Source: Salinibacterium sp. PAMC 21357
GTDB taxonomy: Bacteria > Actinomycetota > Actinomycetes > Actinomycetales > Microbacteriaceae
Assembly: GCF_000247645.1 (NCBI RefSeq)
Contig: NZ_AHWA01000004.1
Coordinates: 62,001 to 126,000 of the forward strand
Reading direction: 5' to 3'
DNA: 64,000 nucleotides
Shown: piece after piece, positions 31,156 to 46,069 of the stretch
Layout of the letters: each line of letters starts with the position of its first letter
Position numbering within the stretch: the stretch's first letter is position 1
Notes under the pieces: model-generated
The model's input: only the letters and a program-made list of their open reading frames with translations
Database searches by the model: none
Told to the model about the DNA's origin: nothing
Made by a program: the position numbers and the translations under genes

Positions 31156-31312
31156 CTTGCTATACGGTACCGGATGCGCGGGGTCTCGCCGTTCTGCCGC
31201 GCAGGAAAAGACGCTCCAACACTGACCGTTGACATTGGCAAGCCCGAGGAGTCAACTGGTTTCAGTCGCGTGCGCGTCCTCGTGCCGTTGGGGGTAACGA
31301 TTTGGAGATCCA

Positions 31313-32266
31313 ATGCGTCCCCCACTACCCGTAACTACTGCCCTCGACGCCATCGGAAACACGCCGGTCGTTGAACTTCGACACCTCAGTTCGCCAGACT
31401 CTGCGGCGGTCTACGTCAAGCTCGAAGGTTTCAATCCCACCGGTTCCTATAAAGACCGGATGGCGCTCGCCATGATCGAAGAAGCCGAGCAACGCGGCGC
31501 CCTCACTCCGAATCTGACCGTGATCGAATACACCGGCGGAAGCACCGGCTCCTCACTTGCCTTTGTATGTGCGGCAAAGGGGTACCGGTTTCACGCTGTA
31601 TCTTCCGATGCCTTTGCTGCGTCCAAGCTGAACACCATGCGAGCATTCGGGGCTCAGCTCACCCTCGTTCACAGCCCGAGTGGGGAAATCAGCCCGGATC
31701 TCATCCCGGAGATGATGTCTGTTGCCGCGACAATCGCAGCGCAGGGTGGCTACTACCAGACCGATCAATTCAACAACCAAGACTCCCTTATTGGGTATGC
31801 CGGGATCGGGCACGAACTCCTCGCCCAGTTTCCCGAAGGTGTCGACGTGTTCTGTGGGGCTGTCGGTACCGCTGGGATGCTGATGGGGGTCGCTGGGGTA
31901 CTCAAAGACAATTCCTCGACCACTCGCGTTGTGGCGCTCGAACCCGCATCAGCGCCCATGCTCACGCTCGGGCATCCAGGACAACACCACGTTGAGGGCA
32001 TCGGCGTTGGTTTCCTCCCTCCCCTTCTCGACAGCGAGTTGTACGACGAAGCTCGGGCCATAGATGAAGCGGCGGCACGCTGGACGTGTCGGCAGTTGGC
32101 CGCACAGGAGGGGCTACTGGTCGGCACGTCCTCCGGATTGAATGTTGCCGCGGCGCTCGAGCTTGCTAGTGAACTCGGGCCGGGAAAAGTTGTCGTGACC
32201 GTCGCCTGCGACACCGGGTTGAAGTACCTCGAGGGCGATCTGTTCGCACGACCACCAACCAGCTGA
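31313..32266 (+). CDS. PLP-dependent cysteine synthase/cystathionine beta-synthase family protein
   Basis: A fold-type II PLP enzyme of 317 residues. The Schiff-base lysine is K47 in N-P-T-G-S-Y-K-D-R; true O-acetylserine sulfhydrylases normally read N-P-x-x-S-V/I-K-D-R. T-G-G-S-T-G-S-S near 75 fits the substrate loop, G-A-V-G-T-A-G near 183 the phosphate loop and G-T-S-S-G-L-N near 270 the PLP-nitrogen contact. It may use O-acetylserine, O-phosphoserine or another beta-substituted serine. A GGAG site precedes ATG 31313. It is divergent from smc and at the edge of the accessory block, with no cysE nearby. Confidence 0.82.
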   Translation: MRPPLPVTTALDAIGNTPVVELRHLSSPDSAAVYVKLEGFNPTGSYKDRMALAMIEEAEQRGALTPNLTVIEYTGGSTGSSLAFVCAAKGYRFHAVSSDAFAASKLNTMRAFGAQLTLVHSPSGEISPDLIPEMMSVAATIAAQGGYYQTDQFNNQDSLIGYAGIGHELLAQFPEGVDVFCGAVGTAGMLMGVAGVLKDNSSTTRVVALEPASAPMLTLGHPGQHHVEGIGVGFLPPLLDSELYDEARAIDEAAARWTCRQLAAQEGLLVGTSSGLNVAAALELASELGPGKVVVTVACDTGLKYLEGDLFARPPTS

Positions 32267-32291
32267 GCCGCCTCCCCAGAACGGTGCGACC

Positions 32292-32682
32292 ATGAAAGAC
32301 TTCGACATCGCCGCGGTCGAGATCCCCACCCACCGTGATCCCAGCGGCCGCGATGAATTCTGCCAAGCGAATTTGAGAGTTACCGGATGCTCGTCGTGAC
32401 CGTCGATGGCCGCGTCGATGGCCGCGGCGATTATGACACCACGGATGGTGACGATGGCGAGAACGAGTCCCGGCTCATTGCGGGCGCGCTCACTCCCGTG
32501 GTCACCGGCTGGGGATGCTCGTAAAGGTGGTGAACTTGGCCCACCTTGACCGAGTTGCCCCCGGCCAACCCTCAGTGATTACTTACAACGCTGACGAGAA
32601 CCGCCACATGCTCGCCGTCAACGAAGCTGTCGGTTTTGTACCCATTGGCTACGAAGGCGTGTGGAAGAAAGAGCTGCGCTAG
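32292..32682 (+). pseudogene. Decayed GNAT acetyltransferase
   Basis: From an ATG at 32292 about 35 codons read to a TGA. A second frame at about 32430-32520 holds a short fragment, and from about 32517 a third segment reads L-V-K-V-V-N-L-A-H-L, then N-A-D-E-N-R-H-M-L-A-V-N-E-A-V-G-F and I-G-Y-E-G-V-W-K-K-E-L before TAG at 32680. That last block is the characteristic C-terminal end of a two-domain actinobacterial GNAT acetyltransferase. Pieces are in different frames and most of the middle is missing, so the gene is a remnant with deletions. It is the only content of the gap between the PLP enzyme and the Lrp gene. Confidence 0.72.
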
Positions 32683-32692
32683 CGGCAATGCC

Positions 32693-33637
32693 TTAGGGCG
32701 ATGCGACCGCGCCGCGATCAGCCGATCCAGCGGCGGCCTCGCGAATGCGGTGCAAGCTGTGCTGGTAGCGCTCCTTGTGGATGCGGGCGTGCAGCCACGT
32801 TTCCAACGACTTCACGCTGGACAGCGCGCGCAGTTCCGCGACAAAGTCGTTGAAGTCGCTGAGAGTCGGGAACGAGATGGTTGTCACGAAATCGAAGCGA
32901 CCTATCGTGCGTGCCATGAACTCCACCCCGGGCTGCTCGTCGATGAGTCGCACGATCGGGTCGGCATTACCCGTGGTGATGAATCCGAAACCGAAGGTGA
33001 GATGCGAGGTCATGTCAGTGCGTTCACGCAAGAGGCCAATGCGCATCGCCCCGGTTTCGGTGAGGCGATTGATGCGAGTGCGACATCCGCTGATTGATAA
33101 GTCAACGGCTTCAGCGAGTTCGGCGTAGCCCATGCGGCCATCAATTTGGAGCAGTTCCATCAACTTAAGATCAGTCGCATCGAGCGGCAAGTCTGCCAGA
33201 GCAGGTTCTTCGCCAAGGAAGAAGCTCTTGAGCGTTCGTTCGTAAATCATGACTTGCACGTCGACGACGCCGTCGCAGGCACGAATAGCTCGAATCTCTT
33301 CGTGTAGTTCGGCCATGGTCGCAGTGTGAAGCTCTGAGATCAGCTGGTACTTGCCCGTGCGCTCCGAGACGAACACAGGTGAATTCAACTGGCAAATTCT
33401 TTCCGCGAGCTCTCCCGCATCACCCTCTGTCTGGATCGACAAGTGAGCAAGTACGTGAAGCCCGAGAAGCCGCGGGTGAACGGCCGCGATGATGCGGATG
33501 TCGCCCGAGAGCAGAAGCGGGTTCAGCCGCTTGGCAACGCTTGCCCGGTTGGTATCAAGTTGGCGCGCAATATCGCTGAACGACGTTCGGCCGTCCTGGC
33601 GCAGAATTGCGAAAGATTGCTCGGTTAGCTGGTCCAC
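32693..33637 (-). CDS. Lrp/AsnC family regulator with duplicated HTH-RAM modules
   Basis: A 314-residue tandem Lrp/AsnC protein, about twice the usual 150 residues. Module 1 begins with an HTH in about residues 3-45 (F-S-D-I-A-R-Q-L-D-T-N-R-A-S-V) and a RAM effector domain to about 140. Module 2 has a second HTH near 155-200 (M-G-Y-A-E-L-A-E-A-V-D-L-S) and a RAM domain to about 290. The GTG start is at 33637. It is divergent from the ABC transporter/catabolic operon across a 234-bp region containing a long-spaced inverted repeat, so I infer that it controls that operon and itself in response to an amino acid or related compound. Confidence 0.9.
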   Translation of the reverse strand: MDQLTEQSFAILRQDGRTSFSDIARQLDTNRASVAKRLNPLLLSGDIRIIAAVHPRLLGLHVLAHLSIQTEGDAGELAERICQLNSPVFVSERTGKYQLISELHTATMAELHEEIRAIRACDGVVDVQVMIYERTLKSFFLGEEPALADLPLDATDLKLMELLQIDGRMGYAELAEAVDLSISGCRTRINRLTETGAMRIGLLRERTDMTSHLTFGFGFITTGNADPIVRLIDEQPGVEFMARTIGRFDFVTTISFPTLSDFNDFVAELRALSSVKSLETWLHARIHKERYQHSLHRIREAAAGSADRGAVASP

Positions 33638-33655
33638 GCGGCCAGACTATCTCAA

Positions 33656-33744
33656 GCAACTCTTGAAACGTAGCGTTTTGTCACTTTATTGGGTGAAATT
33701 CCACTATTTACCCCCGAGAAACCACTCATTCGTTTCAAGTTTGC
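33656..33744. promoter_or_regulatory. Candidate Lrp-type operator: spaced inverted repeat
   Basis: CTTGAAACG (33662-33670) and CGTTTCAAG (33731-33739) form a perfect 9-bp inverted repeat with 60 bp between the arms. The similarity extends outward with one indel: GCAA precedes the left arm and TTGC follows the right arm. A compact dyad AAACG-tag-CGTTT at 33666-33678 overlaps the left arm. Spacing of multiple turns suits an Lrp octamer that wraps DNA. Regulator identity is inferred from its position between the divergent lrp-like and transporter genes. Confidence 0.5.
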
Positions 33745-33775
33745 GTCTTTTGGGTTACAAGACTGCAAATATGCA

Positions 33776-33804
33776 TTGACTTTCCCGTCACGTGTGAACA
33801 CAAT
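33776..33804 (+). promoter_or_regulatory. Sigma70-like promoter for the catabolic ABC operon
   Basis: TTGACT at 33776-33781 and CACAAT at 33799-33804 are separated by 17 bp. It lies downstream of the inverted repeat and about 68 bp upstream of the substrate-binding-protein start, in the correct orientation. It would give an RNA leader of about 60 bases. Confidence 0.55.
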
Positions 33805-33871
33805 GGTCAGAACCAAATCACCCTCCCCAGCACATCCGGGGATGAATCGTTCTGCAGCCACAGGAGAAACA

Positions 33872-34726
33872 ATGAAGAAATCGATCATGGGCATCGCCGC
33901 AGCAGTATCGCTCGCGGTAGTGCTCACCGGATGTGCCGCTGGCACTGAAGCCACGACAGACACCACAGACTCCACCTCCTCCAACGCCCCTGAAGGGCTC
34001 GTAAACGCCAACGCGTTCACCGCGTGCATCGACCCCGAGTACGCCCCCCTCGAGTACTACGCAGACTCAACCGGTGGAGACATCATCGGCTTCGATGCTG
34101 ACGGAATCCGCGCTGTTGCGGACTACTGGGGCGTCGAAACCAAATTCGAAATCACCTCGTTTGATGGCCTCATGCCCGGACTCCAGACCGGTCGCTGCGA
34201 CGTTATCTTCGGCGGCCTGTACATGAGCGAAGAGCGCCTACAGATCGCCGACGCATCCGCCGTCATGAATGCGGGCCCCGCAGCACTGGCAGCACCCGAC
34301 CTCGCAGCGAAGCTCAAAGAAGGCGCCGACTTGTGCGGACTGCGCGTTGCAACGCAGGCAGCATCCAGCAACACGGTGAGCGTTGAGAAGCTCAGCGACG
34401 AATGTGTGGCCGATGGCAAAGAAGCCATCACCCTCACCGAATACCCTAAGACTGCAGAAACCGTGCTCGCAGTGATCAACGGCAAGTCAGACGTACTTGT
34501 CGAAACCAACGTCGCTGCCGCTTACATGGCAACCCAGAACGATGGGCTGCTCTCCGTAGCTAACGGCGTCTTCGATCCAGACACCACCTTCGGAGTCTTC
34601 ACCCCCAAGGATGGCGTGCTCACCGCTGCTGTCGCTGAAGCACTCCGCGCGCTCTACGACGACGGCACTCTCGAGAAGATTGCCTCCGACTACAACCTCG
34701 ACGCCTCGATCGTCGACGTTTACTAA
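33872..34726 (+). CDS. Amino-acid-type ABC transporter substrate-binding lipoprotein
   Basis: Family 3 solute-binding protein of 284 residues. A Lys-rich start, hydrophobic signal and lipobox V-L-T-G-C21 predict a surface lipoprotein; a Thr/Ser/Asp-rich linker follows. The binding domain begins F-T-A-C-I-D-P-E-Y-A-P-L-E-Y and includes G-F-D-A-D-G-I-R-A-V-A and S-F-D-G-L-M-P-G-L-Q-T-G-R-C-D, typical of polar amino-acid or opine binders. ATG 33872 has an AGGAGA site. It heads the operon, with a 13-bp hairpin between it and the permease. The ligand is not predictable; candidates are amino acids or N-modified amino acids given the catabolic genes downstream. Confidence 0.9.
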   Translation: MKKSIMGIAAAVSLAVVLTGCAAGTEATTDTTDSTSSNAPEGLVNANAFTACIDPEYAPLEYYADSTGGDIIGFDADGIRAVADYWGVETKFEITSFDGLMPGLQTGRCDVIFGGLYMSEERLQIADASAVMNAGPAALAAPDLAAKLKEGADLCGLRVATQAASSNTVSVEKLSDECVADGKEAITLTEYPKTAETVLAVINGKSDVLVETNVAAAYMATQNDGLLSVANGVFDPDTTFGVFTPKDGVLTAAVAEALRALYDDGTLEKIASDYNLDASIVDVY

Positions 34727-34737
34727 GCACACTCGAC

Positions 34738-34768
34738 TGTGGGTGGTCACCTCGCGTGACCACCCACA
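34738..34768. terminator. Intercistronic hairpin after the binding-protein gene
   Basis: Perfect 13-bp arms TGTGGGTGGTCAC and GTGACCACCCACA enclose a CTCGC loop, 11 bp past the stop and 18 bp before the permease ATG. No T-tract follows. Hairpins in this place usually stabilise or partly terminate the upstream mRNA and so raise binding protein relative to membrane components. Confidence 0.65.
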
Positions 34769-34786
34769 ACCAGGGAGTCACACCAC

Positions 34787-35536
34787 ATGATCTTTGATCC
34801 AGAAATCTTCTTCACCCAACTCGTCAACCCCGCCTACCTCTGGGGTGCGCTCATCTCTGTCGGAGTCGCAGCGTGCTCGCTCGTCATCGCCACAGTGCTC
34901 GGCTTCTTCCTCGCCATCGGACGAACCTCCAAGCAGCGCTACCTTCGCGCTCCAGCACACCTCTATGTCTGGTTCTTCCGGGCACTGCCAGCATTGCTCG
35001 TTCTGCTCATCATGTGGAACGCACTCCCCCAAATGTTTCCCGCCCTGCGCTCCGACTGGTACACACCGTTCGTGGCAGCATCCGTCGGTCTCGGCTTGGT
35101 CGAAGCAGCCTTCATGGCAGAAATCATTCGCTCAGCGCTGAGCAGTGTGGATGATGGTCAAGAACTTGCCGCTCGCGCGCTGGGAATGAAGCCTGGCTCC
35201 GTAATGCGCCGGGTGGTCTTGCCGCAGGCAATCCGTACCGCGCTTCCCCCGACCGGCAACGAGTTCATCGGACTCATCAAGTACTCCTCTCTCGCGTCAG
35301 TGATCTCGCTTAAGGAACTCCTCACTACGGCCCAAGTCGGGGTGAACATCACCTTCCGCTATGCCGAGTACTACACCGTCGCAATCATGTACTACCTCGT
35401 CATCGTGACGATCATCACGCTCGTGCAGAGTCGGATCGAGAAGCGTTTCCTCTGGACGTCTCGTGGCGTAAAGAAGAACACCGACCCGATCAGCCTGAGC
35501 ACACGCGCACTCGCAACGGTCTCGAAGGAGAAATAA
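34787..35536 (+). CDS. Amino-acid ABC transporter permease
   Basis: HisM/GlnP-type membrane subunit of 249 residues with about five membrane spans. The EAA loop is clear: E-L-A-A-R-A-L-G-M-K-P-G near 127 followed by V-L-P-Q-A-I-R-T-A-L-P-P, the contact site for the ATPase. Only one permease gene is present, so the transporter probably uses a homodimer. It lies 60 bp after the binding protein and 2 bp before the ATPase gene. Confidence 0.92.
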   Translation: MIFDPEIFFTQLVNPAYLWGALISVGVAACSLVIATVLGFFLAIGRTSKQRYLRAPAHLYVWFFRALPALLVLLIMWNALPQMFPALRSDWYTPFVAASVGLGLVEAAFMAEIIRSALSSVDDGQELAARALGMKPGSVMRRVVLPQAIRTALPPTGNEFIGLIKYSSLASVISLKELLTTAQVGVNITFRYAEYYTVAIMYYLVIVTIITLVQSRIEKRFLWTSRGVKKNTDPISLSTRALATVSKEK

Positions 35537-35538
35537 GC

Positions 35539-36321
35539 ATGAGCACAGAAACCGTGAACACCGTTCCTACCCTGCAAGTTGCGAACCTTCATAAGGCGTA
35601 CAACGGAACCGAAGTTCTCAAGGGCGTCGAATTCCAGATCAACAAAGGTCAAGTCAAGGCAGTTCTCGGCCCATCGGGTTCGGGCAAATCGACGATGCTG
35701 CGTTTGATGGCGTTGCTCGAGCCTGCCGACCGGGGAGAAATCAGCCTCGATGGCAAGCGAATCGGCGCTTCAGACAACAATGGCCGCATCGCGCATCACT
35801 CCGAACGCAGACTCGCCGTGCAACGACGTGATATCGGCATGGTGTTCCAGAAATTCAACCTGTTTCCCCACCTCAACGCCCTCGAAAATGTGGTGCTTGC
35901 ACTCACTGAAGTGCAAAAAGTCGGAAAAGCCGAAGCTCGCGAGCGCGCCTTCCTCATGCTCAACAAAGTAGGGCTCGGAGATCGAGACCGACACTTTCCC
36001 TCCGAACTTTCCGGTGGCCAGCAGCAGCGGGTAGCGATCGCGCGGGCACTCGTGCTGAACCCGCACGTCATGCTCTTTGACGAGCCCACATCCGCCCTCG
36101 ACCCTGAGCTGGTCGGTGAAGTGCTCGAGGTCATGGAAAACCTCGCTGCCGGCGGAATGACGATGATCGTGGTAACTCACGAAGTGAAGTTCGCCCGTCG
36201 CGCGGCCGATGAGGTCACCCTCTTCGACAGCGGAGTGATTGTTGAACAGGCAGAACCTGGCGAGTTCTTCGATAACCCGCAGCACGAGCGCACGAAGCAG
36301 TTCTTGAGCCATGTCCACTAG
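35539..36321 (+). CDS. Amino-acid ABC transporter ATP-binding protein
   Basis: GlnQ/HisP-type ATPase of 260 residues. Walker A G-P-S-G-S-G-K-S-T is near 44-52, a Q-loop V-F-Q-K-F near 104, the signature L-S-G-G-Q-Q-Q-R near 156 and Walker B L-F-D-E-P-T-S-A-L-D near 180. It starts 2 bp after the permease stop and overlaps the following dehydrogenase by 11 bp, which ties transporter and enzymes into one operon. Confidence 0.94.
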   Translation: MSTETVNTVPTLQVANLHKAYNGTEVLKGVEFQINKGQVKAVLGPSGSGKSTMLRLMALLEPADRGEISLDGKRIGASDNNGRIAHHSERRLAVQRRDIGMVFQKFNLFPHLNALENVVLALTEVQKVGKAEARERAFLMLNKVGLGDRDRHFPSELSGGQQQRVAIARALVLNPHVMLFDEPTSALDPELVGEVLEVMENLAAGGMTMIVVTHEVKFARRAADEVTLFDSGVIVEQAEPGEFFDNPQHERTKQFLSHVH

Positions 36322-37327
36322 AAACAACGACGTGCTTCGCGCCGTCTACACCGACCTCGACGGCACTGATTTCTCGGCCGGGCGCGAGCTACTGAGCTCC
36401 GCCGGGTTCGAGGTCAGCTACCTCGACTCGCTGGATGCGGAAACGATCGTTGCCGGCGCGGATGGCGCCAGCGCACTGCTTGTGGGCTACGCCGAGATCA
36501 CCCGTTCCATGATCGAACGCATGCCGTCGGTCAAGATCATTGCCCTCATGTCGATGGGCTTCAATCACATTGATGTGGATGCTGCCACCGAACACGGAAT
36601 CTGGGTCACCACCATCGTGGGGGCGGCCACCGAAGAGGTAGCGACGCACGCCTTGGCGATGGCACTCCACCTGACACGTGGCATCACGTTCTCGCAGCAG
36701 GCGGTCGTTTTCGATCGCTGGAACGAGCGGGATACTCTCGTGCAACCGCGTCTGAGCGAGCTCACTCTCGGACTCATGGGCCTGGGCCGGATCGGCATGA
36801 AATTTGCCGAACTTGCGCGCCCCCTGTTCGGCGAGATCATCGGCTACGACCCTTTTATCCCCGACACCGACGAGACTCGCGAGCACTTTGCCGAAGCGGG
36901 AGTTCGCCGCGTAGATGCTGACGCTGTCCGTTCGCAGTCAGACGTTCTTTCGCTGCACCTGCCGCTCACGAACGACACCGCGAACATGGTCGATGCCGAC
37001 TTCCTCAGCACGATGAAGCCGCTCTCGTACCTCATCAACGTGAGCCGTGGCGGACTCGTCGACAGCGCTGCCCTTCGAGCCTCTCTCGATAACAGTCACC
37101 TCGCCGGCGCTGGTCTCGACGTGCTGGATGTCGAACCAGCTACCGCCGAGCATCCGCTCCTCGGTCACCCCCGGGCTCTGATCACGCCGCACATCGCCTA
37201 CTTCTCTGGTCGCAGCGAAGCGGAGTATGTGCGCCTGCAGGCCCAAAACGTTGTCTCGTGGGCCTCAACCGGCACCCCCGACACTCCTCTCGTGTCGTTG
37301 TCGGCACCCTCAACCTCCACTCACTAA
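36311..37327 (+). CDS. D-isomer-specific 2-hydroxyacid dehydrogenase family protein
   Basis: NAD(P)-dependent enzyme of 338 residues that interconverts a 2-oxo acid and a D-2-hydroxy acid. The dinucleotide motif G-L-G-R-I-G is near 157; catalytic residues sit in N-V-S-R-G-G-L-V-D (Arg, near 240), D-V-L-D-V-E-P (Glu, near 271) and T-P-H-I-A (His, near 295). It resembles the CtBP/phosphoglycerate-dehydrogenase-like branch. The first 11 bp overlap the ABC ATPase gene, so it is coupled to uptake. It could reduce or generate the 2-oxo acid that the downstream TPP enzyme decarboxylates; the substrate is not known. Confidence 0.88.
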   Translation: MSTRNNDVLRAVYTDLDGTDFSAGRELLSSAGFEVSYLDSLDAETIVAGADGASALLVGYAEITRSMIERMPSVKIIALMSMGFNHIDVDAATEHGIWVTTIVGAATEEVATHALAMALHLTRGITFSQQAVVFDRWNERDTLVQPRLSELTLGLMGLGRIGMKFAELARPLFGEIIGYDPFIPDTDETREHFAEAGVRRVDADAVRSQSDVLSLHLPLTNDTANMVDADFLSTMKPLSYLINVSRGGLVDSAALRASLDNSHLAGAGLDVLDVEPATAEHPLLGHPRALITPHIAYFSGRSEAEYVRLQAQNVVSWASTGTPDTPLVSLSAPSTSTH

Positions 37328-37346
37328 GAACCTCACCGGAGTACTC

Positions 37347-39029
37347 ATGCGCAAGCTTTCGGCCTTTGACGTGCCACTTTCAGACTTCACCCCCACCGTT
37401 GTGACCGCGCGAGCGATTCACACCCTCGATGCCGCCAACACCGTCGTCACCGCAATTCTCATGTTCGCGGGCACGGTTGCTGCGGTGGGAACAGCAGAGG
37501 AGTGCCTCGCTGCCGCGGCAAAGCTGTCGCCGAGTGAGCCAGCACGCGTTGACTTCGGCAGCCAGGTCATCGTGCCCGGCTTCATTGACGCTCACGCTCA
37601 TCCGCTCATGCTCGGTCAGTTGATGAGCTGGGTGGATTGTGGTCCAGACAAGGCCTCGAGCATTCCGGAGATTGTGGCGCTATTGAAGGCTGCAGCAAAC
37701 ACCGTTCCCGAGGGGCAACCGATTCGTGGCTACGGTTACGAACAGCGCAATCTTGCCGAAAAGCGTCACCCGCACCGCACTGAACTCGACGACGTCGCCC
37801 TCGATCGCGAGGTGTACCTCATGAACGCCTCCGGCCACGGCGGCGTGGTGAACAGCTACACCTTCGAACTCTTTGGCATCACTCGCGAGACCGAAAACCC
37901 TCAGGGTGGTGAATTCTTCCGCGATGCCGACGGCGACCTCACGGGCGAGCTTTCGGATGCCGCCTGCAACATTCTTACCGGCCTCGGCGGAGTGAAGGTC
38001 GGCCACCACGGCCCCAACTTCCATCTCGCCGACACCCCGGCCGAGCACGTGCGGCAGCTCGCCGTGGCGCAGAACGCGTTCCTCCAGGGCGGCGTGACGA
38101 CCATCGGCGACGCGCAAGTATCGCGCCGCGAATTCGACACCTACCTGCGTTTGGCCGAGCAGAACCAGCTGAAGACCCGCATCTCGATGTACCTGCTCTC
38201 GCACCTGCTCGACGAAGCGATCGAGACCGGAATGCACGGAGCCTTCGGCAACGCCCACTTGAGCTTCTCGGGCATCAAGTTCTACGCCGACGGCACTCTC
38301 GGCGGCTGGACCGCGTACTTCCCCGACGGCTACGTCGGAGACCCCTGCCGCACCGGCCAGCTCTACCATGAGCCCGCCGACTACAAGGCACTCATCAGCC
38401 GCGCGCACGCCGTCGGTCTCCAGACCGCAACCCACGCCCAGTCCCCCACCGCCATCGAAATGGTCGTCGACGCGATTGAAGCGGCCCTCGCCGAGAATCC
38501 AGACAGCGACGCCCGGCACCGCATCGAACACTGTGGCCTGCCTACCCCCGATCAGATCTCGCGGATGGCGGCAGCCGGCATCCGGCCCGTCAACCAGCCG
38601 CAGCACCACTTCAACTGGGGTGAGGGCGTCGAGCAGGCCATCGGCACCCCCGGCGAGCGCTTCAACCCGCTTGGCGAGTTTACTGCGGCTGGCGTTCCCA
38701 TCACGATCAGCTCGGATGCCCCGGTTGCTGACCCGCGTCCGCTCGAAGCAATTCAGGCGGCCACCACGCGCGTCACGCGCCGCGGCACACAGCTCGGCCC
38801 AGATTCCCTCGCGATTACCCGCGAACAGGCGCTGCGGGCTCACACCATCAACGCGGCCCACTCGCTGGGGCGCGAAGATGATCTGGGAAGCCTTGAAGTC
38901 GGCAAACGCGCTGACTTTGCCGTGCTCAGCGCCGATATTTTCGAAACCGAATGCGCTCAGATCGGCGCGATCACCGTCGCCGAGACCTGGGTCGATGGCG
39001 TTCGCCAGTACAGCGCCGACGAGAAGTGA
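37347..39029 (+). CDS. YtcJ/NfdA-type metal-dependent amidohydrolase
   Basis: Amidohydrolase-superfamily TIM-barrel enzyme of 560 residues (YtcJ-like, amidohydrolase family 3). Metal ligands are in D-A-H-A-H-P near 82, a barrel lysine in G-I-K-F-Y-A-D-G-T near 310, histidines in T-A-T-H-A-Q near 357 and H-R-I-E-H-C near 392, and D in S-S-D-A-P near 453. Members include N-substituted formamide deformylase, so an amide or formamide bond is a plausible target. I chose ATG 37347, which has a CCGGAG site 20 bp after the previous gene; an upstream frame extension would run inside that gene. Predicted cytosolic. Confidence 0.85.
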   Translation: MRKLSAFDVPLSDFTPTVVTARAIHTLDAANTVVTAILMFAGTVAAVGTAEECLAAAAKLSPSEPARVDFGSQVIVPGFIDAHAHPLMLGQLMSWVDCGPDKASSIPEIVALLKAAANTVPEGQPIRGYGYEQRNLAEKRHPHRTELDDVALDREVYLMNASGHGGVVNSYTFELFGITRETENPQGGEFFRDADGDLTGELSDAACNILTGLGGVKVGHHGPNFHLADTPAEHVRQLAVAQNAFLQGGVTTIGDAQVSRREFDTYLRLAEQNQLKTRISMYLLSHLLDEAIETGMHGAFGNAHLSFSGIKFYADGTLGGWTAYFPDGYVGDPCRTGQLYHEPADYKALISRAHAVGLQTATHAQSPTAIEMVVDAIEAALAENPDSDARHRIEHCGLPTPDQISRMAAAGIRPVNQPQHHFNWGEGVEQAIGTPGERFNPLGEFTAAGVPITISSDAPVADPRPLEAIQAATTRVTRRGTQLGPDSLAITREQALRAHTINAAHSLGREDDLGSLEVGKRADFAVLSADIFETECAQIGAITVAETWVDGVRQYSADEK

Positions 39030-39037
39030 GCACCACA

Positions 39038-40720
39038 ATGACTACAACCACCAATGACAACTACACCGCCGAAGCTGCCGCGACGGCCTCGGCGGTTGGC
39101 GTCGACGTCAATAACGCGGGCCTCGCCCTGATGACGGTGTTGCGCAACTACGGCATCGATACGGTGTTCGGCATTCCTGGCACCCACAACCTCGAGCTCT
39201 ACCGCCCCCTCAGCGCGCTCGGCATACACCCCGTGACCACTCGTCACGAACAAGGAGCGAGCTACGGATCGGATGGCTGGTCGCAGCAGACCGGTCTGCC
39301 CGGTGTCGTGATCACCACCTCTGGCCCTGGCTTGCTTAACGCTCTGTCGGGTGCGGGAACCGCGTACTGCGAATCGCGCCCGATGATCCTCATCTCCCCC
39401 GGTGTTGCCGAGGGCAGCGAGTTTGCCGACAATGGTGCACTGCACGAGACTAAAGATTCCACGGGTGCCGCTGGCGCCATCGTCGAGTGGAGCCGTCGAG
39501 TCACGAGTGCCACGGATGCCGTCACCGCCGTTCACGATGCCTTCGAACTGTTCCGCTACGGTCGCCCGCGCCCCGTGCACATCGAGATTCCACTCAACGT
39601 GCTCGAGTCGGCGAGCGATTGTCCCGAAGAGCTGTTGCAGGCCCGCCCCGAGCGTGCCCGCGCGGCCGCTGATGCCGCTGCCGTCGAACGTGCCGCCGAG
39701 ATCTTGGCTGCTGCCGCCCATCCCGTCATCATCGCTGGTGGCGGCGCAAGCCGCATCGGCGCCGAGCTCACCGCTCTGGCCGAATCGCTGAATGCGCCCG
39801 TCGTGACAACGCTCAACGGCAAGGCGTCGATCCCCGAGACGCACCCGCTGTCGCTGGCCTCCGAGATTCGTTTGCCGGTCATCCACGAACTGATCAACCA
39901 GTCGGATGCCGTACTCATCATCGGTTCAAAGCTGGGCGAAGCGGAGCTGTGGGGCGGCGTCATCGCGCCGGCGGGCACGGTCATCCGCGTGGATGTCTTG
40001 GAGTCGCAACTCAACAAGAACGTCGCGAGCGATCTCGGTCTGGTCGGAGACAGCACGGTGATCGTCGGCCAGCTGCGCGATGCTCTGGCTGCACGCACCA
40101 TCACGGGCAACGCCACGACAGCTACGGAGCTTGCCGCCGTGCGCGACACCGCAGTTCGTGAGGCTCAAGAGGTCTCGCCGACGCTGCATCGAGTGGCGAG
40201 CATGATCAATGATGCGATCCCTGAGAACGCGATCGTCGCGGGCGACTCTTCGCAAATCACCTACTTCGGAATGGCGAGCGTCGTTCGCCAAGAGACCTCG
40301 CACTCATTCCTCTACACCCCCGCCTATGCGACGCTCGGCTACGGACTGCCGGCAACGATCGGCGCCAAGGTAGCCTCGCCCGATCGCCCCGTCGTTTGCG
40401 TGCTTGGCGACGGCGCGTTGATGTTCGCCGTGCAAGAGTTCATCACCGCGATCGAACAGGGTTTGGACATCACCATCGTGTGCGTCGATAACGGCGGTTA
40501 TGCCGAGATCAACCAGAATGAGCGCGATCGCGGCATCACTCCTGTCGGAGTTGTACTGGCGCAACCAAACTGGTCGGTGCTCTCCGCGGCCTTTGGGGGT
40601 CACGGTTTTTCGGTTACCGATCCCACCCAACTCACCGACACCGTCGCCCAGGCAATTGCCACTCCCGGATTCGCTCTTGTGCACGTGCCGCTCGGCATTT
40701 TTGAAGCCCACAACGGTTGA
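39038..40720 (+). CDS. Thiamine-pyrophosphate enzyme, 2-oxo acid decarboxylase type (AruI-like)
   Basis: A 560-residue TPP enzyme. The PYR domain has F-G-I-P-G-T-H-N-L-E-L-Y and the catalytic Glu in T-R-H-E-Q-G-A near 66; a central Rossmann domain lies at about 205-330; the PP domain has G-D-G-A-L-M-F near 455 and ends its TPP motif with V-D-N-G-G-Y. The N-terminal pattern is closest, by eye, to 5-guanidino-2-oxopentanoate decarboxylase (AruI of the arginine transaminase route) rather than acetolactate synthase. No transaminase is nearby. It starts 8 bp after the amidohydrolase stop. Substrate would be a 2-oxo acid; which one is open. Confidence 0.85.
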   Translation: MTTTTNDNYTAEAAATASAVGVDVNNAGLALMTVLRNYGIDTVFGIPGTHNLELYRPLSALGIHPVTTRHEQGASYGSDGWSQQTGLPGVVITTSGPGLLNALSGAGTAYCESRPMILISPGVAEGSEFADNGALHETKDSTGAAGAIVEWSRRVTSATDAVTAVHDAFELFRYGRPRPVHIEIPLNVLESASDCPEELLQARPERARAAADAAAVERAAEILAAAAHPVIIAGGGASRIGAELTALAESLNAPVVTTLNGKASIPETHPLSLASEIRLPVIHELINQSDAVLIIGSKLGEAELWGGVIAPAGTVIRVDVLESQLNKNVASDLGLVGDSTVIVGQLRDALAARTITGNATTATELAAVRDTAVREAQEVSPTLHRVASMINDAIPENAIVAGDSSQITYFGMASVVRQETSHSFLYTPAYATLGYGLPATIGAKVASPDRPVVCVLGDGALMFAVQEFITAIEQGLDITIVCVDNGGYAEINQNERDRGITPVGVVLAQPNWSVLSAAFGGHGFSVTDPTQLTDTVAQAIATPGFALVHVPLGIFEAHNG

Positions 40721-40790
40721 GCTCGACGCCAGTACGGCATCGTTTCACTCCATTTCTCGCATGCTCACTCTTCAGTAAAAGGATCACCTC

Positions 40791-42365
40791 ATGACCGAAA
40801 CTGCTCTCGCCGCCGACGCCAAAGTCACCGCCCGCACCTGGGTGGATGACAACATGCCGCGCCTCTCCGAGTGGCACAGCCACATCTGGCAGCTCGCCGA
40901 GCCTGCCTGGCGCGAGTTCCGTTCGGCTCAGTGGTACGTCGAGCTACTGCGCACCGAGGGCTTCACTGTTGAAGAAGGTTCTGCCGGGATGCCGACCGCC
41001 TTCAGCGCGGAATGGACCAACGGCACGGGCGGCCCCACGATGTTGAGCTACGCCGAATACGATGCCGTGCCCGGCAACAACCAGTCGGCATCCGTCACTC
41101 AAGACAGCCGCGAGGGTATGAGCCGCTTCGCTCCCGGCCACACCGACCCGCACTCCGCGCTCGGAATTTCGACGCTCGCTGGCCTGCTCGCTACCAAGCA
41201 CGCCATGGAAAAGCACAACATCCCTGGCTCCCTCAAGTACACGGGCGAGCCCGCCGAAAAGATGCATGGCTCCAAGGTCGTTCACGGCCTGCGCGGCTAC
41301 TACGACAACGTGGATGCCATCGTGAGCTTTCACCCCTTCTACATGCTGCCGCTCTGCAACACCGCCCGCTGGGACACCCAGTGCGGTGCGTACTACAGCA
41401 AGGTATACACCTTCATTTGTGACGAGCCGGAGTCGTGGCAGCTCAACGCCAACCCCAACTCCCCCATCCCTGCTTCGCACTCCGCAGCGCGCGCTCCCGG
41501 CGCCAACGTTGCTCTGATGTCGATGTATACCTCGTCGCGCATCATGCAGGATGCCATGCTCCCGAGCTTTGGAGGGTGGAGTCTCAGCGACGCCATCTTG
41601 CTCGACGGTCAAGCGACCGCCGACAATCTGCCGGCGCGCGTTGCCCGCATCCAGTATTCCTGGCGCACCCCGAACATCGAGATGGCGGAGCATGTGCTCG
41701 CTGTGCTCGACCGTAACGCTGAGCACGCCGGTGCGATGGCTCACTGCGACGTGGAGACCACGTGGGTGGCACGCAGCCGCCCCGGTCGCACCAACCACGC
41801 GATGTCGACCGTTCTCTACAACAACCTCGAAGCGGTGGGAGCACCCCGCTACGGCGCTGACGCGATCGCTGTGGCGCAGGAGATTCAGCGCAACCTTGGT
41901 CTCGAGGCGATGGAGAAGCCGTTCCTCGACGAGTGCGAGCAGCTCATCACCCCGCAGGATGCCGAAAAGGCGCTGCGCGAACACCTCGCCCCGTGGCAGC
42001 AGAACTGGACGAGCGATGACTACGTCGAAATGACGCACTACGCGCCGACCGTGCGCTTCTACGTCTCACGCCCCGCTCTCAAGCCCGCGCCGGGTAAGGG
42101 TGCGTACCCGGGGTGGGTCATGAACGCTCTCGGCGGTATTCCGGAGACGATCGACCCCACCATCGAAACCGCGGGCAAGACCGTCGCCGGCACGTTCATC
42201 GACCTGCTGGTTGACCCTGCCCTCCTCGCCGAGGCCAAGAGCGAGTTCGACAAGCGAGTCGCTGAAGAGCCGATGCCCGCCCTGCTGCCGGTGGATTTCC
42301 AGCCGCCGATCGATCTCCCCTGGCCTGACTACCGCACCAACGGTGACGCGCGCACCTGGGGCTAA
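40791..42365 (+). CDS. AbgB-like M20 family amidohydrolase
   Basis: A 524-residue M20D-like metallohydrolase related to the p-aminobenzoyl-glutamate hydrolase subunit B. Likely metal ligands are D in A-E-Y-D-A-V-P-G near 90, H in G-H-T-D-P-H-S near 111-115, E in G-E-P-A-E-K near 146 and H in S-F-H-P near 171. The usual G-H-x-C-G-H-N motif is replaced by G-H-T-D-P-H-S, as though the Cys ligand were substituted. A helical dimerisation domain seems to be inserted from about 180. It would cleave an N-acyl or peptide-like amide. Last gene of the operon, 70 bp after the TPP enzyme, ahead of a strong hairpin. Confidence 0.82.
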   Translation: MTETALAADAKVTARTWVDDNMPRLSEWHSHIWQLAEPAWREFRSAQWYVELLRTEGFTVEEGSAGMPTAFSAEWTNGTGGPTMLSYAEYDAVPGNNQSASVTQDSREGMSRFAPGHTDPHSALGISTLAGLLATKHAMEKHNIPGSLKYTGEPAEKMHGSKVVHGLRGYYDNVDAIVSFHPFYMLPLCNTARWDTQCGAYYSKVYTFICDEPESWQLNANPNSPIPASHSAARAPGANVALMSMYTSSRIMQDAMLPSFGGWSLSDAILLDGQATADNLPARVARIQYSWRTPNIEMAEHVLAVLDRNAEHAGAMAHCDVETTWVARSRPGRTNHAMSTVLYNNLEAVGAPRYGADAIAVAQEIQRNLGLEAMEKPFLDECEQLITPQDAEKALREHLAPWQQNWTSDDYVEMTHYAPTVRFYVSRPALKPAPGKGAYPGWVMNALGGIPETIDPTIETAGKTVAGTFIDLLVDPALLAEAKSEFDKRVAEEPMPALLPVDFQPPIDLPWPDYRTNGDARTWG

Positions 42366-42370
42366 CACGC

Positions 42371-42406
42371 GCTCGCTAGATTGCCGGCATTGGCGATCTA
42401 GCGAGC
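42371..42406. terminator. Bidirectional terminator hairpin between the catabolic operon and mutM
   Basis: GCTCGCTAGATTGCC and GGCGATCTAGCGAGC pair over 15 positions with one G-T wobble and a six-base loop. It begins 5 bp past the M20 gene and its right arm contains the mutM stop codon and the last mutM codons. The paired strength makes termination likely for both convergent transcripts, although no T-tract follows. Confidence 0.7.
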
Positions 42407-43294
42407 TGCACTCCCGCGAACGCGTTGGCAAAATTTGCAGAAGTGCGAACCGCGGTTCATGAACTGCTCGCGCACGACTTCGCGACCGCAGCGGGGGCAC
42501 TCCCGACCCTGCTGGCCGTACACGTTTAGTGAGTGCGCAAAGTAGCCCGATTCACCATTCACGTTGAGGTACTGGGTGTCGAAGCTCGTGCCGCCCTCGG
42601 CAAGCGCTTTCGCGAACACCTCCCTCGCCTCAGCGAGTAGCAGCACAGCCTTGGCCCGACTCAGCGACTCGGTCGGCTGGTTGTAATGAACCTGCGCGGC
42701 CCACAATGCTTCATCGGCATAGATATTGCCGATGCCGCTCACGAGGGTCTGATCGAGCAACGCCCGTTTCACCGTGGTGCGTTTGGCCTTCAGAGCGCGT
42801 AAGAACTTCGCATCGTCGAAGTAGGGGTCGAGCGGGTCACGCGCGATGTGTGCGACCTGGCTCGGCACCGCGAACGCGGGCTGATCGACAGAGGGCAGCA
42901 TGCTGTCGATCGCCATCGAGCCGAAGATGCGCTGGTCGACAAAGTTGAGGCGCAGTGCGCCGTGGTCGGGATGATCAAGTTCGATGCGGATGCGCGTGAG
43001 CCGGTCATCCGTATTCCTATCGCGCAAAAGCACTTGCCCACTCATACCAAGATGCGTGACAAGTGCTTCATCGTGTCCTTCTGCACTATCGGCCAGAGGG
43101 AGCCACATGAACTTGCCCCGGCGCTGAGGCGTGAGAAACGTACGACCAGTCAGACGGTCGATAAAGTCTTCGCTCGGTCCCTCATGACGACGCAGCGAGC
43201 GCTCATCAAAGACGGTGACGGATGCCGCAGTCGCGCCAGTGACCGCCGGTTCGAGGCCAGCGCGCACAACTTCGACCTCGGGAAGCTCGGGCAC
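42398..43294 (-). CDS. mutM: Formamidopyrimidine-DNA glycosylase MutM (Fpg)
   Basis: Base-excision repair enzyme that removes 8-oxoguanine and cleaves the abasic site. The N-terminal catalytic proline follows the initiator: P2-E-L-P-E-V-E. A helix-two-turn-helix (L-V-S-G-I-G-N-I-Y-A-D-E) is near 165, and a C4 zinc finger (C-P-R-C and C-K-F-C) is close to the end. I chose GTG 43294 because cleavage at P2 needs this start; a longer frame to 43330 would overlap rnc and bury the catalytic proline. It follows rnc by 5 bp. Confidence 0.95.
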   Translation of the reverse strand: MPELPEVEVVRAGLEPAVTGATAASVTVFDERSLRRHEGPSEDFIDRLTGRTFLTPQRRGKFMWLPLADSAEGHDEALVTHLGMSGQVLLRDRNTDDRLTRIRIELDHPDHGALRLNFVDQRIFGSMAIDSMLPSVDQPAFAVPSQVAHIARDPLDPYFDDAKFLRALKAKRTTVKRALLDQTLVSGIGNIYADEALWAAQVHYNQPTESLSRAKAVLLLAEAREVFAKALAEGGTSFDTQYLNVNGESGYFAHSLNVYGQQGRECPRCGREVVREQFMNRGSHFCKFCQRVRGSAAR

Positions 43295-44821: not shown

Positions 44822-45064
44822 GATCGTCGATTCTACCCCCGCAACCGGCTCGCTGTCGCCCCCGGTCAGCGATCGCACAGACACTGCTCACATGCGTAGC
44901 GGACACCAGCACCCTCTGCACGTCAATAGACTGACCTACACAGACCCGTGCGCTTGGTATGGCGTGGTTGGTTTGCCCAGGATTGGGCTTCCGGTCTTCT
45001 TGAAACACTTTTCATCCTGATGAGCGTATTTCTGCGCCCAATCCGTCGTTTCTGGGAAGGCTCC

Positions 45065-46069
45065 ATGTCTGTTGTTTCTCGCACCACTTTCTCGCGCTCC
45101 GTGTTCTCGCGCACTGTTCTGCTTGCAGGCGTCTCCGTTCTTGCCGTGAGCGGATGCACGGCTGCCGCTCCCGAAGCGGTAACGCCCTCTCCTGATGCCG
45201 CCGCGCAGTCCGTTGAGCTCAGCAACTGCGGCGTTGACGTGACCTTCGATTCGGCTCCTGAACGCGTCATCACCATCAAGTCGTCGACCACCGAAATGCT
45301 TTTGGCACTCGGTCTGGGTGATCGCATTATTGGCACTGCCTTTCAGGATGGCCCGGTGCCCGAGCAGTGGGCATCCGAGGCGGCAGACCTGACATCCATC
45401 GCCGAACGCGTCCCGAGCCAAGAGGCCGTGCTCGATCTCGAACCCGATCTGGTATTTGCGGGTTGGGAGTCCACTTTTAGCGCTGACGGTGCTGGCGAAC
45501 GCGCCGACCTCACTTCCCTCGGCATCAACACTCTGGTGGCCCCATCTGCCTGCCAGAGTGCCGAACAGCCGGCTCAGCTCAGCTTCGACGACGTGTTTAG
45601 CGATATCGAAACTGTTGCCTCCATCTTCCGAGTGGACGCCACCAGCCTCCTCGCCGAACAGGCCGCTCAGCTCGCCGCCGTTGACGCTAACGGCGATGCT
45701 CGCACCGCCCTCTGGTTCTCGTCAGGTTCGGACACTCCTTATGTAGGGGCCGGCATCGGTGCACCGCAGCTGCTGCTCGACACTGTTGGTCTCACCAACA
45801 TCGCCGCTGACGTGAAGTCGACCTGGGCTCCCTACAACTGGGAGGCCGTCGTCGACGCTGACCCCGACTTCATTGTTCTCGTGGATGCCGCCTGGAACTC
45901 GGCAGACAAGAAGATCGGTGTGCTCGAGACGAACCCGGCAACCGCTAACCTCAGTGCGGTGAAGGCTGGCCGTTACCTCGTGGTGCCATTCGCAGCGAGC
46001 GAGGCTGGCGTGCGCAGCGTTGAAGCTGCTCAACTCCTCTCGACTCAAATTGCGGAGCTTGATGGCTAA
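45065..46069 (+). CDS. Substrate-binding lipoprotein of proposed F420-0 ABC transporter
   Basis: A 334-residue FecB/BtuF-class binding protein. Lipobox L-A-V-S-G-C31 predicts an external lipoprotein. The periplasmic-binding region has R-V-I-T-I-K-S-S-T-T-E-M-L-L-A-L-G-L, then Y-V-G-A-G-I-G-A-P-Q and A-A-D-V-K-S-T-W. Siderophore/cobalamin-type binders of this sort occur in a three-gene actinobacterial cassette proposed (TIGR03868 family) to take up F420-0. The F420 role here is inference strengthened by cofE, fgd and LLM genes nearby. ATG 45065 has a GGAAGG site; upstream frame extension is not needed. It overlaps the permease start by 8 bp. Confidence 0.82.
   Translation: MSVVSRTTFSRSVFSRTVLLAGVSVLAVSGCTAAAPEAVTPSPDAAAQSVELSNCGVDVTFDSAPERVITIKSSTTEMLLALGLGDRIIGTAFQDGPVPEQWASEAADLTSIAERVPSQEAVLDLEPDLVFAGWESTFSADGAGERADLTSLGINTLVAPSACQSAEQPAQLSFDDVFSDIETVASIFRVDATSLLAEQAAQLAAVDANGDARTALWFSSGSDTPYVGAGIGAPQLLLDTVGLTNIAADVKSTWAPYNWEAVVDADPDFIVLVDAAWNSADKKIGVLETNPATANLSAVKAGRYLVVPFAASEAGVRSVEAAQLLSTQIAELDG

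Follow-up and report, generated by a model that had tools for sequence, protein, structure and literature searches.

A conserved Lrp-linked transport and enzyme operon in Salinibacterium, possibly for catabolism of an arginine-like compound

The arginine transaminase pathway is made up of AruH, AruI, an aldehyde dehydrogenase and guanidinobutyrase. Here we describe an operon of Salinibacterium sp. PAMC 21357 that resembles this pathway in part. It lies within a window of 64,000 bp (the whole stretch of DNA analysed; contig NZ_AHWA01000004.1, positions 62,001 to 126,000) and consists of a gene for an Lrp/AsnC-type regulator, divergent from seven genes for a binding lipoprotein, the permease and ATPase of an ATP-binding cassette (ABC) importer, a D-2-hydroxyacid dehydrogenase, a YtcJ/NfdA-type amidohydrolase, a thiamine pyrophosphate (TPP) enzyme and an M20 hydrolase (Table 1). 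An AruI-like TPP enzyme and an amino-acid-type importer are common to this operon, the arginine transaminase pathway and the arginine transamination network of Sinorhizobium meliloti (PMC7268258). As in the pathway, an aminotransferase or an aldehyde dehydrogenase is encoded near the operon in some relatives. Unlike the pathway, the window operon adds the M20 hydrolase, the amidohydrolase and the dehydrogenase, has a TPP enzyme that scores below the AruI cut-off, and is without an aminotransferase, an aldehyde dehydrogenase and a ureohydrolase; the AruI-like gene is the only member it has of the linked aminotransferase, AruI, aldehyde dehydrogenase and guanidinobutyrase set.

The reading that we favour, with a probability of about 0.42, is that this Lrp-controlled, horizontally spread operon takes up and catabolises an arginine-like compound, either a 2-amino or 2-hydroxy acid with a guanidino or basic group or a small conjugate of such an acid. 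An arginine-like substrate is suggested because the TPP enzyme is related to AruI, because guanidine-hydrolase-like genes are partners of the M20 gene in Alphaproteobacteria, and because the M20 fold resembles that of an Xaa-Arg dipeptidase. The seven genes and the Lrp gene form a real conserved transport-plus-enzyme unit. All eight open frames are present, on the strands and with the spacing given by the sequence-only reading of this DNA; the intervals within the seven-gene run are 60, 2, -11, 19, 8 and 70 bp, assuming starts at 37347 for the amidohydrolase and 39038 for the TPP enzyme, for which there are longer in-frame alternatives at 37227 and 38951.

Of 25 tabulated Micrococcales loci, 17, from several genera, keep all seven genes in this order and on a single strand, which bears out the co-occurrence of these families that the sequence-only reading had proposed to look for (the count includes locus L044, where the Lrp gene is downstream and the order is otherwise the same; the automated count is 16). 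Near the M20 gene in these 25 loci are genes for the TPP enzyme (25), the amidohydrolase (24), an Lrp-type regulator (24), the dehydrogenase (21) and a family-3 binding protein (19), together with an aminotransferase in seven and an aldehyde dehydrogenase in four. The table omits locus L165, a decayed locus (L066/L170) and two loci (L156 and L157) whose genomes are already represented by L041 and L045. L165 has Lrp and M20 genes and no match to the TPP enzyme, amidohydrolase or dehydrogenase within the 17.3 kb examined; adding it and the decayed locus makes 27 loci, with the TPP enzyme near M20 in 25 and the amidohydrolase in 24. Reduced versions are present in Leucobacter (L048; transporter, TPP enzyme and M20) and in Arthrobacter castelli (L055; Lrp, M20, TPP enzyme and amidohydrolase).

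The same operon is carried by S. amurskyense, with an M20 protein that is 98% identical, and one Arthrobacter copy is on a 754-kb plasmid. The distribution is patchy: M20 is matched at E 3.2e-117 or better in 15 of 299 genomes of the window's family (its own and one decayed copy included), there are two matches at E 1e-40 among 396 genomes sampled from the phylum, one being its own genome, and 28 at E 1e-80 among 397 genomes sampled from the order of Phyllobacterium, with the Phyllobacterium protein as query. In a sixteenth genome of the family (G060) the M20 protein is just 29-33% identical, yet the Asp and Lys motifs described below are present. We infer that the operon has spread horizontally. 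Separately, we note that in a Kibdelosporangium locus (L053) an Lrp-type gene is divergent from M20, a flavin amine oxidase gene comes after M20, and an amino-acid permease gene is nearby; no AruI-like gene is found within the stretch examined.

The TPP enzyme carries all three TPP-enzyme domains (Pfam), and its best NCBIfam model is NF005712 (AruI, 5-guanidino-2-oxopentanoate decarboxylase) at 434.6 bits, with the runner-up at 348.2; the Phyllobacterium and Shinella proteins reach the cut-off of this model, with 759.5 and 728.4 bits. A single small FastTree was built from operon TPP enzymes, AruI proteins and further TPP enzymes encoded by the same genomes. Its split with support 0.978 places the operon enzymes with those of two other actinobacterial M20 clusters (L158 and L167), the alphaproteobacterial AruI proteins and the proteins of L088-L091 and L102, and on the opposite side are acetolactate-synthase-like enzymes and the protein of L153, which is thereby ruled out as an AruI. 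The window enzyme is AruI-like and a probable 2-oxo-acid decarboxylase; we refrain from calling it a sister of AruI, because the branch order on the AruI side is only partly resolved. Glyoxylate carboligase is ruled out, the Glu of the RHEQGA motif, which we take to be functionally important, being retained. Three genomes in which a protein passes the AruI cut-off were checked, and each has a single such match, inside the M20 locus in two (L056 and L068) and outside the M20 stretch examined in the third (L069).

The last gene of the operon encodes a protein without a Pfam match (none to PF01546 at E 0.001), and a member of the same subfamily (L023) just passes that model (25.7 bits against 24.6). 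Its sole NCBIfam match is TIGR01891, with 84.1 bits against a cut-off of 153.75, compared with 234.5 bits for a canonical M20 relative (L171). The overall M20 fold is present, and the nearest folds are HmrA and human PM20D2 (an Xaa-Arg dipeptidase in the PDB), both ranking above the aminobenzoyl-glutamate protein 3io1 and also above aminoacylase. The sequence-only reading had called this protein AbgB-like, a label that we have dropped, as aminobenzoyl-glutamate utilization proteins of the AbgA/AbgB type, represented by 3io1 (AbgB itself is absent from the lists), are clearly farther away, and one that overlooked an altered metal site. The alignment comprises the window protein and 39 of 56 located M20 frames, including two canonical outgroups (L171 and L172). 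Asp119 and Lys157 replace the canonical Cys and second Glu in 38 of the 40 sequences, the remaining two being the outgroups; column 440 is His in the outgroups and not in the other 38, of which three (L147, L158 and L167) have His at column 441; and the catalytic Glu156 is kept in all 40. The subfamily was set by similarity (38 members at least 29% identical to the window protein, outgroups 26%) and the motifs were read afterwards.

HmrA and PM20D2 carry GHACGH and PAEE at the aligned positions. The two-metal ligand set (Cys-x-His, Glu-Glu, His and a C-terminal His, roles that we assume for these residues) is therefore incomplete in the window protein, and because Cys is changed to Asp, the second Glu to Lys, and the last His is out of place in all 38 members, the subfamily is predicted to bind one metal instead of two. 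The same changes set the window protein apart from the HmrA/PM20D2 branch (Xaa-Arg and beta-alanyl-lysine dipeptidases), as do its length (524 residues compared with 394 in HmrA) and its low TIGR01891 score.

A different set of partners accompanies the M20 relatives of Alphaproteobacteria, which are approximately 44-60% identical. The 42 loci tabulated omit one with M20 adjoining a DDAH gene (L076), further plasmid matches, and loci not taken at 20 kb. The same-strand neighbour within 500 bp of M20 is DDAH-like in 25, ADI-like in three, YtcJ-type in two and none of these in 12; a LysR-type gene is near M20 in 33, and AruI (at least 45% identity to a reference) is within about 10 kb in 13. Aligned to Pseudomonas DDAH, the DDAH-like protein of L081 and the ADI-like protein of L078 retain the His, Glu, Cys triad and two Arg positions, which we presume to be functionally important. 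A FAD-linked oxidase related to the Pararhizobium one is present at 17 of the 42 loci and may take the place of the window's NAD-type dehydrogenase, and the Shinella and Sinorhizobium clusters also hold an allantoinase-like deacetylase, a carbamoylase-family hydrolase, an aminotransferase and a class II aldolase.

On three alphaproteobacterial plasmids (L192, L193 and L197) DDAH/ADI-like genes, those of L192 and L197 being relatives of the DDAH-like gene, are clustered with ABC importer genes. The rest of the content varies: a Zn-dependent hydrolase gene in L192 and L197 (annotated as such in both, and assigned to the carbamoylase family in L192, the one locus where this was tested), a class III aminotransferase in L193 and L197, and arginase and agmatinase in L192. 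These clusters perhaps represent a separate guanidino-acid catabolism. The L192 cluster shares the arrangement of a guanidine-hydrolase-like gene beside an M20-superfamily hydrolase, plus an ABC importer, and the window operon differs from it in that its hydrolases are the altered M20 and a YtcJ-type amidohydrolase.

The window amidohydrolase matches Amidohydro_3 with 310.3 bits (Pfam cut-off 29.7), as do YtcJ/NfdA-type enzymes, and it has their conserved residues, with His84, His86, Lys312, His364, His396 and Asp458 invariant across 11 copies and, we presume, metal-binding in role. All 18 NCBIfam models listed for it fall short of their cut-offs, which bears on its candidate identity as an N-substituted formamide deformylase; the best is HutI, at 59.9 bits far below its cut-off of 298.15 and covering residues 344-552 only. 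The structure model is poor around the active site (mean pLDDT 70.2) and its fold matches confirm the superfamily only, the nearest structures, 3icj and 3igh, both being named uncharacterised. At two alphaproteobacterial loci (L143 and L145) a remote YtcJ-type amidohydrolase (25% identity) occupies the slot that is filled by a DDAH-like or ADI-like gene in 28 others, and this swap of partners, there and in the Micrococcales operons, is the one observation that points to a possible role in guanidine or amidine hydrolysis. In view of the swap, the amide cleavage that the sequence-only reading ascribed to two of the enzymes is putative. At both loci M20 and the amidohydrolase gene are followed by what we take, from the look of the sequences, to be a CobW-like GTPase gene, near groEL. 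Elsewhere, relatives of the window amidohydrolase are found near 2-hydroxyacid dehydrogenase genes, adjacent in L194 and about 5 kb off in L196.

The families named by the sequence-only reading for the remaining genes agree with Pfam, as they do for the amidohydrolase and the TPP enzyme. The Lrp protein is double-module, with two helix-turn-helix (HTH) stretches and one AsnC_trans_reg stretch, and its halves align with each other over 127 aa at 20% identity (E 1.2e-9). The binding lipoprotein matches SBP_bac_3 with 82.1 bits (cut-off 26.4), and Asp56, Arg124 and Glu213, which we presume to act in ligand binding, are invariant across 16 aligned copies; judged from sequence alone, the pocket indicates no single ligand. 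The permease matches BPD_transp_1 (87.7 bits, cut-off 26.4) and passes TIGR01726 'HEQRo_perm' (70.9 bits, cut-off 42.2), a name that we take to mean His/Glu/Gln/Arg/opine. The ATPase matches ABC_tran (122.2 bits, cut-off 25) and the dehydrogenase 2-Hacid_dh_C (170.7 bits, cut-off 25.1), and for the latter all 21 NCBIfam models listed stay below their cut-offs.

Comparison with two genomes of the same genus shows the operon to be present or absent as a block at the smc-mutM junction. In one (G242) homology ends at 32683 and restarts at 42406, and in the other (G145) it ends at 32667 and restarts at 42438, break points that enclose everything from the Lrp gene through M20. In G282, a third genome, which also has no M20 match, smc and mutM are approximately 3 kb apart, and homology stops at the start of smc (31090) and restarts at 42416. 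In Salinibacterium sp. SWN167, M20 is reduced to its C-terminal part, which lies near smc and contains an in-frame stop; this genome also has a second mutM fragment about 11 kb from a longer mutM match that is itself listed with two stops. The sequence-only reading had proposed insertion of a block at this junction; the block stands, and its absence may reflect loss in the operon-free relatives in place of insertion here. With a G+C content of 0.614, the block resembles the remainder of the window (0.606), and composition thus gives no sign of recent foreign origin.

A scenario consistent with the arginine-like reading is that the lipoprotein and ABC importer would bring the compound in, and that the M20 hydrolase would cleave a conjugate to release a basic acid, probably using one metal, Lys157 having taken the position of a second-metal ligand. 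The 2-oxo acid would then be produced by the D-2-hydroxyacid dehydrogenase, or by an aminotransferase encoded elsewhere, as near the operon in some relatives; the window genome has an aminotransferase that is 45% identical to the one in Homoserinimonas. Decarboxylation by the AruI-like enzyme would give an aldehyde for oxidation by an aldehyde dehydrogenase, and the YtcJ-type amidohydrolase would hydrolyse the guanidine or amidine group, as a DDAH-type or ADI-type enzyme would in the alphaproteobacterial versions. We infer the substrate class, each reaction and the order of the steps in this scheme, as well as control by Lrp and the metal count. The earlier proposal of import of an N-substituted amino acid or opine-like compound holds as to a conserved unit of uptake and enzyme genes, in agreement with the permease score; the alphaproteobacterial neighbours favour a guanidino or arginine-like compound, and the data speak neither for nor against an opine.

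Several observations weigh against an arginine-like substrate. The window operon is without a DDAH/ADI, aminotransferase or aldehyde dehydrogenase gene, and its own genome has four arginase/agmatinase-family genes (C3:1008723, C3:585919, C3:550857 and C2:41855). The TPP enzyme is under the AruI cut-off (434.6 against 500 bits) and its placement relative to AruI is poorly resolved (support 0.571 at the neighbouring node). Sequence does not single out its substrate or that of the dehydrogenase, and AruI relatives are not strict in their substrates: the S. meliloti homologue IlvB1 is seven times as active on 5-amino-oxopentanoate (PMC7268258). The Leucobacter locus has no amidohydrolase or dehydrogenase match within the stretch examined. 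The alphaproteobacterial loci are non-independent, the 13 with AruI being seven Phyllobacterium with the rest Metarhizobium, Sinorhizobium, Shinella, Pararhizobium and two genomes of the same order, and because many of these genomes are closely related the independent counts are lower than 13 and 42. Moreover, 29 of the 42 are without AruI in the stretch examined, the 12 without any of the three partner types must be reckoned with, the TPP enzyme of L153 is not AruI-like, and at four of the 13 alphaproteobacterial 'aminotransferase' loci the gene probably encodes a MocR-type regulator instead, as demonstrated for L150 and judged by likeness only for L148, L151 and L152.

A more ambitious proposal, which we put forward only tentatively, is that the M20 subfamily exchanged one metal for a lysine, works with a single metal, and forms the core of a mobile, previously undescribed pathway for a guanidino or arginine-derived conjugate in Actinomycetota and Alphaproteobacteria, with unrelated guanidine or amidine hydrolases of the DDAH/ADI and YtcJ types exchanged around it. 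Of the explanations that dispense with arginine, the one most deserving of attention, although we consider it rather unlikely, is that M20 and the amidohydrolase deacylate a common N-acyl or N-substituted amino acid, be it hydrophobic, aromatic or opine-like, and that the guanidine-free 2-oxo acid is decarboxylated or reduced in Ehrlich-like fashion; the position of the TPP enzyme on the AruI side of the tree, the DDAH and ADI partners beside orthologous M20 genes, and the closer fold match to HmrA and PM20D2 than to aminoacylase argue against it. Those same partners, adjoining M20 in 28 of 42 loci, would also suit an M20 that acts last and cleaves a ureido group after guanidine hydrolysis (for example 4-ureidobutyrate to GABA) in place of guanidinobutyrase. 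That role is consistent with a GABA transaminase gene above its cut-off in L153 and with L192, where a DDAH relative, though a more distant one, is paired with a carbamoylase-family hydrolase; we regard it as unlikely.

The HutI match, best though far sub-threshold, would fit an imidazolonepropionase-like opening of a cyclic amide on the guanidine of arginine, as in a glycation hydroimidazolone, and PuuE-like polysaccharide-deacetylase genes occur in the Shinella, Sinorhizobium and Kozakia clusters (116 bits in Shinella, cut-off 424.6). This seems very improbable, as the match spans only part of the protein, the compound class is without direct support, and nothing relevant was found in the open-access literature among the matches listed. 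Least credible is a chance neighbourhood without a common pathway: gene content does vary, some relatives being without the transporter, dehydrogenase or amidohydrolase, and against this stand the order and strand kept across genera, the tight spacing, and a block that is either there or missing as a whole at one site.

Table 1. Coordinates of the operon genes, M20 motifs and variable block in the window
Feature	Position	Strand	Basis
Double-module Lrp/AsnC-type regulator, divergent	32693..33637	-	Two AsnC HTH stretches and AsnC_trans_reg (Pfam); self-similar halves
Family-3 solute-binding lipoprotein	33872..34726	+	SBP_bac_3; lipobox-like stretch LTGC
Polar amino-acid-type ABC permease	34787..35536	+	BPD_transp_1; TIGR01726
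ABC ATPase	35539..36321	+	ABC_tran
D-isomer 2-hydroxyacid dehydrogenase	36311..37327	+	2-Hacid_dh_C
YtcJ/NfdA-type amidohydrolase	37347..39029	+	Amidohydro_3
AruI-like TPP enzyme, probable 2-oxo-acid decarboxylase	39038..40720	+	NF005712 sub-threshold; AruI side of tree
M20 hydrolase, altered-metal-site subfamily	40791..42365	+	Sub-threshold TIGR01891; metal-site motifs
M20 changed metal-site motifs, His117-Thr-Asp119-Pro-His121 and Pro154-Ala-Glu156-Lys157	41139..41261	+	Alignment
M20 codons Pro440-Gly-Trp442 (His-Ser-Trp in two canonical outgroups)	42108..42116	+	Alignment
Block missing at the smc-mutM junction of two same-genus genomes	32684..42405		blastn break points

Among the neighbouring genes, we note that a cysteine-synthase-like pyridoxal phosphate (PLP) enzyme is encoded at 31313-32266, on the smc side of the Lrp gene. 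By blastn, neither the S. amurskyense copy nor the operon-free G242 and G145 match the stretch 31205-32496, and strain PHSC20C1 has a CysK match; the stretch looks like a separate insertion or replacement. Beyond rnc, the open frame at 44948-46069 is lipoprotein-like, with an apparent likeness to iron-siderophore or cobalamin binding proteins.

The sequence-only reading knew of no described pathway with this gene set, and among the matches listed none was found in open-access full texts, a scope outside which most subscription papers fall; open-access literature on modified arginines, ureidobutyrate, canavanine, PM20D2/HmrA and one-metal M20 enzymes likewise added nothing among the matches listed. 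What appears to be new is a widely conserved combination of known families for which no description was found, together with an M20 subfamily with a putatively reduced metal site. The eight-gene block probably imports and degrades a nutrient, perhaps an arginine-like one, in some soil, marine and plant-associated bacteria, and if the arginine-like reading is correct these bacteria would have an extra catabolic route for arginine-related compounds. The M20 branch with a lysine for a metal ligand would then offer a testable transition from a two-metal to a one-metal hydrolase, and the exchange of DDAH/ADI-type and YtcJ-type enzymes in one slot would hint at function within a large and poorly characterised amidohydrolase family.

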